This document shows, in pieces, positions 33,686 through 35,257 of a stretch of 36,753 nt of DNA. This DNA is from Candidatus Campbelliibacteriota bacterium (GTDB taxonomy: Bacteria; Patescibacteriota; Minisyncoccia; Phycocordibacterales; GCA-2747955), in NCBI GenBank assembly GCA_947311625.1, contig CAMZKW010000014.1, positions 1 to 36,753 of the forward strand. The letters run 5' to 3'. The notes beneath the pieces are model-generated. The model was not told the origin of the DNA and searched no databases. It saw only the letters and a list, made by a program, of their open reading frames with translations. Position numbers and translations under genes: made by a program. Position 1 is the stretch's first letter. Every line of letters starts with the position of its first letter.

Positions 33686-35257
33686 TTTTATAAGAGTTTG
33701 ATCCTAGCTCAGGATGAACGCTTTCTGTGTGGATAAGGCATGCAAGTCGAGGGCCTAATTTATTAGGACCGGCGAACGAGGTAGTAACACGTAGGATAAC
33801 ATACCCCAAAGTCGTGAATAGCCTATCGAAAGGTAGGGTAATACACGATATCTCTTCGGAGGAAAGATTTATCGCTTTGGGAATGGCCTGCGGGATATCA
33901 GCTAGTTGGTAGTGTAATGGACTACCAAGGCTACGACGTCTAGGGGAGGTGAGAGCCTGACCCCCACCGATGGGACTGAGACACGGCCCATACTCCTACG
34001 GGAGGCCGCAGTCGAGAATCTTCCACAATGGACGAAAGTCTGATGGAGCGACACAGAATGGTCGATGAAGCACTTCGGTGTGTAAAGACCTTTTATGAGG
34101 GAGAAAGTTTATTGATGTTACCTCATGAATAAGGGGCTGCTAATCACGTGCCAGCAGCAGCGGTAATACGTGAGCCCCGAGCGTTATCCGGAATTATTGG
34201 GCGTAAAGGGTCCGTAGGCGGTTTAATTAGTCTTTCGTTAAAGCACCAGGCTCAACCTGGGACAGGCGAAGGAAACGGTTAAACTAGAGAATGAGAGGGG
34301 TGTGTGGAACTCATGGTGTAGGGGTGAAATCCGTTGATATCATGGGGAACACCAAAAGCGAAGGCAACACACTGGCTCATTTCTGACGCTGAGGGACGAA
34401 ACCTAGGGTAGCGAAGGGGATTAGATACCCCCGTAGTCCTAGGCCTAAACGATGTATACTAGCTTTGTGGGGAATCAACCCCCCGCGAGGCGAAGCTAAC
34501 GCGTTAAGTATACCGCCTGGGGAGTACGGCCGCAAGGCTAAAACTCAAAGGAATAGACGGGGACTCGCACAAGCGGTGGATCACGCGGCTTAATTCGATG
34601 ATACACGAAGAACCTTACCAAGGCTAGAAATTTAATTCATGCTCTACATTGGAAACAAATAAGAGATATCGGGTTAAACAGGTGCTGCATGGTCGTCGTC
34701 AGTTCGTGGCTTGAGCTGTTCCGTTAAGTCGGGAAACGAACGCAACCCTCATCGTCTGTTATACGTGTCAGACGAGACTGCCTCGCCTTAAGTTGTTAAG
34801 TGCTTGAAGGCTTAATTCAGAAAAATGCTTAGATTTAAATTTTATTTGATTCTTCCATTTTTCTGAATTAAGTTTTCAAAACTTGAAGATTTAAGGCGGG
34901 GAGGAAGGTGAGGATGACGCCAGATCAGCATGGCCCTTGATGCCTTGGGCTGCACGCATGATACAATGCCATAGACAACGGGTCGCGACGGAGCAATCCT
35001 GAGCTAATCCTTCAAACTATGGCCAAGTTCGGATTGGGGGCTGAAACTCGCCCCCATGAAGTTGGAATCGCTAGTAATCGCAGGTCAGCTATACTGCGGT
35101 GAATATGTTCTCGAGTCTTGTACTCACCGCCCGTCAAGTCAAGGGAGTTGGGAGCACCCAAAGGCCGTATTTATTACGGACTAAGGTGAATTCAATAACA
35201 AGGACTAAGTCGTAACAAGGCACGGCTAGCGGAAGCTGGTCGTGGATTATTTCAAAG
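33686..35257 (+). rRNA. rrs: 16S ribosomal RNA (boundaries approximate)
   Basis: agagtttgatcctagctcag at 33693; gtgccagcagcagcggtaa; attagatacccccgtagtcc; aagtcgtaacaagg at 35207-35220. Confidence 0.97.
34787..34894 (+). other. Expansion within 16S rRNA at the helix 40 region
   Basis: Extra sequence between gagactgcc and ggaggaagg, including a 17-bp perfect stem 34811-34827 / 34856-34872. Confidence 0.75.

Follow-up and report, generated by a model that had tools for sequence, protein, structure and literature searches.

The 16S rRNA gene and its 3′ end

The window, by which we mean the whole 36,753-nucleotide stretch analyzed here (contig CAMZKW010000014.1 of assembly GCA_947311625.1, Candidatus Campbelliibacteriota bacterium), carries a complete 16S rRNA gene at 33686–35257 on the forward strand. 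The gene aligns end to end with the Rfam model RF00177 (model positions 1–1533, 1348 bits), and no second 16S rRNA gene was found in the 624,325-base assembly. The sequence-only reading, which had called the loss of the anti-Shine-Dalgarno (anti-SD) sequence from this gene, had also considered a pseudogene or a second copy with a canonical tail; the gene is complete and high-scoring, so it is not a pseudogene, and the assembly holds no canonical copy elsewhere.

The sequence AAGTCGTAACAAGG is located at 35207–35220, just 5′ of helix 45 (35221–35244, forward strand). As first read, the helix has an intact GGAA loop (CACGGCTAGC-GGAA-GCTGGTCGTG), and it is identical or nearly identical in genomes of the same order. 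The 13-nt tail that follows (35245–35257, forward strand) is GATTATTTCAAAG, without an anti-SD, where GATCACCTCCTTA is expected. Ungapped alignment to GATCACCTCCTTA from the end of helix 45 places UUUCA (35250–35254, forward strand) at the positions homologous to CCUCC. The replacement of CCUCC noted initially is therefore real, but the pentamer given for it, AUUUC, lay one base too far left.

Several other features of the gene and the window were observed. In the 530 loop (34140–34165, GTGCCAGCAGCAGCGG), C526 is replaced by A, and GGC by TGC on the 505–507 side; U505-A526 is a probable compensatory pair. Variants with A or GA in this loop recur throughout the order, and the 515F primer would be mismatched to them. 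An insertion of ~80 nt at about 34800–34895, inside the 16S rRNA gene and upstream of GGCGGGGAGGAAGGTG, is a long AT-rich hairpin. No tRNA, 23S, or 5S rRNA genes were found in the window, and a conserved 23S motif lies on a different contig from the 16S rRNA gene (G000:C2:25893, reverse strand; G000 denotes this genome), so the rRNA genes appear to be unlinked. At 2066–2443, there is an ORF fragment resembling a transposase/integrase core, judged by eye from its translation.

Tail types across the order, class, and phylum

Comparison with relatives agrees with the absence of the anti-SD: the 50 distinct tails compared within this order of Parcubacteria (class Paceibacteria) all lack CCTCC, as well as the shorter CTCC. 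A search for this tail type in named genomes recovered Nomura-, Zambryski-, Taylor-, Adler-, Yonath-, and Harrisonbacteria (Parcubacteria/Paceibacteria); tails retrieved in this way were omitted from the tail statistics because the search pattern had fixed those bases. In the same-order genome G175, an additional 16S sequence bearing CCTCC lies on a short contig (G175:C6:258–334). Its helix 45 is strongly unlike that of its relatives, and it is probably contamination.

Within the class but outside the order, CCTCC is kept in 66 genomes and lacking in 55 (hand count of the listed rows). The CCTCC-less members include the stages ATCATCTCC, TTTCTCC, CACTTCTT, ATTATTAAATC, and TCATTTTTTT, and single families (f84, f73) contain differing stages of decay. 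Of 83 genomes sampled from other classes of the phylum, 78 have CCTCC, likewise by hand count and with the 16S rRNA genes seen limited by the search pattern. Because of this difference in retention, the class is, as read from the tails, a hot spot of anti-SD decay, with family labels and counts referring to a sampled subset of genomes and to MAG data.

These comparisons bear on whether the loss could be an artefact, that is, an assembly error, a pseudogene, a tail displaced by an intron, or a second, canonical 16S rRNA gene lying in a gap. The assembly, in 22 contigs and 92.6% complete, leaves a little room for this. However, the gene is full-length and high-scoring, and no CCTCC occurs on the forward strand past 35240 in the window, which excludes an intron or shift hiding it downstream. 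Moreover, every same-order genome examined has the same tail type, which excludes assembly error and chance. We regard an artefact as extremely improbable.

A candidate stem-loop at the lost site

The tail and the bases just downstream form a candidate pre-16S stem-loop, AUUUC-AAA-GAAGU (35249–35261, forward strand), whose register is fixed across the order and which shows compensatory changes. Tail positions 5–8 (after GGA) can pair in this register with downstream bases, over at least 3 bp, in 43 of 50 same-order tails; when the downstream halves were shuffled in 2000 trials, 11 tails did so on average and never more than 21. At position 5, U-A changes to G-C, and at position 8, A-U changes to C-G. 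When 3′ halves were swapped among sequences, stems of at least 4 bp fell only from 31 to a mean of 25; this control is nearly as high because most tails share similar arms. Thermodynamic folding of the window sequence alone did not predict the stem, which is weak in this sequence by itself; its support is comparative. Canonical relatives offer an equivalent hairpin, CUCC-UUUCUA-GGGAG. With moderate support, the tail stem is perhaps a pre-16S processing element that has outlived the anti-SD.

Reassignment of UGA to tryptophan

Based on alignments, the genome reads UGA as tryptophan (table 4): W fills 370 of 850 aligned cells in the in-frame TGA columns of the window's coding genes, in a test that barred UGA as a stop. 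A tRNA(UCA) (G000:C1:62943–63014) adjoins tRNA-Trp(CCA). No match to RF2 was found in this genome, nor to RF1, the latter perhaps owing to an assembly gap. Among genomes of the same genus, RF2 was not found in G001 and G003, whose RF1 contains in-frame TGA, yet it is kept in G002 and G004, and so the reassignment looks recent. Four further same-order genomes (G018, G043, G044, G045) gave no match of RF2 strength, which may point to additional UGA changes or to gaps. In 2026, UGA was reported to be read as tryptophan in the Patescibacteriota family JAKLIH01, which that work assigns to a different order, UBA6257 (PMC13092985). The glycine reading of Gracilibacteria/SR1 was rejected, as UGA aligns with tryptophan and the named relatives are Nomura-, Zambryski-, Taylor-, and Adlerbacteria.

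Shine-Dalgarno motifs and the translation apparatus

ORFs were called over the whole assembly with code 4 and mechanical starts (longest ATG), and relatives and 100 kb of E. coli K-12 were passed through the same pipeline. SD4 motifs (GGAG, GAGG, or AGGA at −18 to −4) precede 7.4% of ORFs in this genome (4.2% at a control position) vs. 52.6% in E. coli. Thus, the genome-wide survey of SD frequency proposed at the outset finds motifs near background. A slight excess of AGGAG/GGAGG persists (4.3% vs. 0.4%); a few genes may retain SD-like motifs or have mis-called starts. Among the relatives compared, a modest SD excess was seen only in G283 (21% vs. 9% at the control). Altogether, the loss of CCUCC is supported as genuine and lineage-wide, and it is matched by SD motifs near background.

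The genome encodes S1 domains (G000:C11:5859–6602), and IF3 was detected. No bS21 was found in this genome, and in the order there were just two weak, sub-threshold matches. Era had no match over the cut-off in the 21 genomes searched, which yielded other GTPases only. Era, which recognizes GAUCACCUCC, is missing from most CPR (PMC10582724); its absence here is therefore a trait of the class rather than something peculiar to this loss.

Extended −10 promoters fused to start codons

A TATAAT box (at most one mismatch) starts exactly at −12 in 191 of 534 genes, where ~26 are expected and adjacent offsets have 16–25. In roughly one gene in three, 6–7 times background, the −10 hexamer therefore occupies the stretch 12–7 nt ahead of the ATG. 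Genes carrying the box have the consensus T at −17, A at −16, T at −15 (0.90), and G at −14 (0.87), i.e., the extended −10 element TRTGnTATAAT; TG at −15/−14 occurs in 84% of them, although it was no selection criterion. The box is found in 60% of genes lying 25–80 nt behind a same-strand gene and in 34% of those that are far from one or first, but in only 9% of closely coupled genes (<25 nt from the upstream gene). This distribution is what would be expected of a promoter. Sigma-70-type RNA polymerase initiates ~7 nt downstream of the −10 hexamer, and transcription would therefore start at the A of the ATG.

In the window, seven such elements lie on the forward strand, each ending 7 nt before an ATG: TGTTATAAT at 3751–3759 (ATG 3766, FtsW/RodA-like gene) and 28375–28383 (ATG 28390), TGATAAAAT at 4878–4886 (ATG 4893), TGATATAAT at 20310–20318 (ATG 20325) and 32600–32608 (ATG 32615), and TGTTAAAAT at 20696–20704 (ATG 20711, phosphoketolase-like) and 25041–25049 (ATG 25056). 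On the reverse strand, TGTTATAAT at 3281–3289 and at 24964–24972 stands 7 nt before the ATG of the genes 2498–3274 and 24184–24957, respectively.

The conserved tail could in principle be an altered anti-SD, with AUUAUUUCAAAG pairing with a new upstream motif, e.g., UUGAAAU. The tail is itself conserved within the order, and tail-complementary 5-mers are more frequent at −18 to −4 than further upstream (0.64 vs. 0.30). However, the 5-mer excess is due to AT-rich words common to the −10 box and TAA stops, complementary 6-mers stand at 0.177 over all genes vs. 0.193 in base-composition shuffles, and the covarying stem explains the conservation of the tail better. Closely coupled genes show a small 6-mer excess (0.37 vs. 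0.29 shuffled). Altogether, we consider an altered anti-SD very unlikely.

The register of the −10 box bears on leadered, SD-free initiation as in Bacteroidota, in which A-rich, unstructured 5′ regions would be bound, probably via bS1, and leaderless mRNAs would be minor. The A-rich regions upstream of closely coupled genes (A 0.76 at −3) and the bS1-like S1 domains are as this explanation would have them. Yet the −10 box occupies one exact register to the ATG, and does so only where the gap permits a promoter, leaving almost no leader; moreover, the Bacteroidota mechanism retains CCUCC and requires bS21, neither of which was found here. Such an explanation is unlikely for this genome.

Enrichment at −12, scored as TAnnnT, extends to relatives. 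In the same order, it is 5.4× in G011, 5.1× in G035, and 4.3× in G045; anti-SD-less genomes of other orders have 3.0× (G306) and 4.8× (G391), and canonical-tail genomes have 5.5× (G169), 5.6× (G283), 2.8× (G105), and 1.6× (G309), compared with 0.9× in E. coli. Since the canonical-tail genomes G169 and G283 show similar enrichment, the presence of leaderless genes is not sufficient to bring about the loss. The predicted leaderless architecture is more widespread than anti-SD loss, which suggests that it came first and made CCUCC dispensable.

Probable initiation without mRNA-rRNA pairing

The whole order has lost CCUCC, and it is likely that its first genes start at leaderless AUGs, transcribed from −10 promoters 7 nt upstream. 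In this bacterium, the start codon is probably the very 5′ end of most messages. Translation would be initiated without mRNA-rRNA pairing: at first genes, the extended −10 element 7 nt upstream would make transcription begin at the AUG or directly beside it, and this 5′-terminal AUG would be recognized by the ribosome with initiator tRNA, IF2, bS1, and IF3. Closely packed downstream genes, which lack this promoter, would probably be translated by coupling or by reinitiation, within surroundings that are rich in A and have little structure. The anti-SD would be dispensable because most first genes would be translated from leaderless mRNAs, so that the CCUCC tail, and with it bS21 and Era, both of which contact the tail, could be lost. 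The mature 16S end would be expected near GAUUAUUUCAA. The analysis shows the loss of CCUCC and how far it extends phylogenetically, the near-background SD motifs, the register of the promoters, and the lack of bS21 and Era matches; where the RNAs begin, how ribosomes are recruited, and in which order events took place are inferred.

A fuller account, to which we give somewhat better than even chances, is that the order initiates without mRNA-rRNA pairing, mainly at leaderless AUG starts, that leaderless architecture arose early in the class, and that decay of the anti-SD followed on several independent occasions, through intermediates such as CACTTCTT, ATCTCC, and TTTCTCC, with the stem kept by compensatory change. 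The anti-SD is among the most conserved bacterial sequences. Here, a large and diverse group has loss, decay intermediates, and retention side by side, so that the reasons for its persistence or loss can be tested by comparison, with leaderless transcripts as a candidate cause and the absence of bS21 and Era as correlates. For annotation of start sites in these genomes, the −10 register, not SD motifs, should be relied upon.

Comparison with known systems

A total of 128 taxa are documented to have lost the anti-SD (Amin et al. 2018, PMC6107228). The organisms that a 2024 survey lists as lacking CCUCC and having few SD motifs include Ca. Campbellbacteria, Ca. Wolfebacteria, SR1, and Peribacter (PMC10783764). 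Known losses include Bacteroidota, mollicutes, insect symbionts, and single Parcubacteria. The sequence-only reading had placed such losses mainly in highly reduced symbionts, but they are not restricted to these: Bacteroidetes such as Chryseobacterium, Mycoplasma, and two Parcubacteria are among them (PMC6107228, PMC10783764). The “category iv” organisms of the 2024 survey, including Campbellbacteria and Wolfebacteria, resemble our genome in having an intact 16S without CCUCC and SD motifs near background (PMC10783764). However, they are single representatives with no linked mechanism, whereas the loss described here extends over an order, shows gradations within the class, and goes together with −10 boxes placed at a constant 7 nt from the AUG. 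The anti-SD-less Bacteroidetes, Mycoplasma, and Carsonella have also lost both CCUCC and SD (PMC6107228), but the present lineage is independent of them, and leaderless promoters are not their stated explanation.

Bacteroidota-type sequestration, in which an intact CCUCC is held by bS21/bS18/bS6, differs from the situation here, where there is no CCUCC and no bS21 match. The leaderless-rich type of Mycobacterium and Deinococcus is similar in having the −10 element directly upstream of the start codon. This type, as far as is known, keeps an intact CCUCC tail and uses SD for many genes. Mammalian mitochondrial mRNAs are near-leaderless, and the small rRNA of the mammalian mitochondrial ribosome, as here, lacks an anti-SD (a feature described in PMC10582724); the mitochondrion, however, is an organelle that still uses an Era homologue, and Era was not found here. 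In the literature searched, we found no link between Patescibacteria and leaderless mRNA except a remark that YchF promotes leaderless translation. Thus, the loss itself is known, while its order-wide extent, the decay series, and the coupling to promoters fused to start codons appear to be new in the literature searched.
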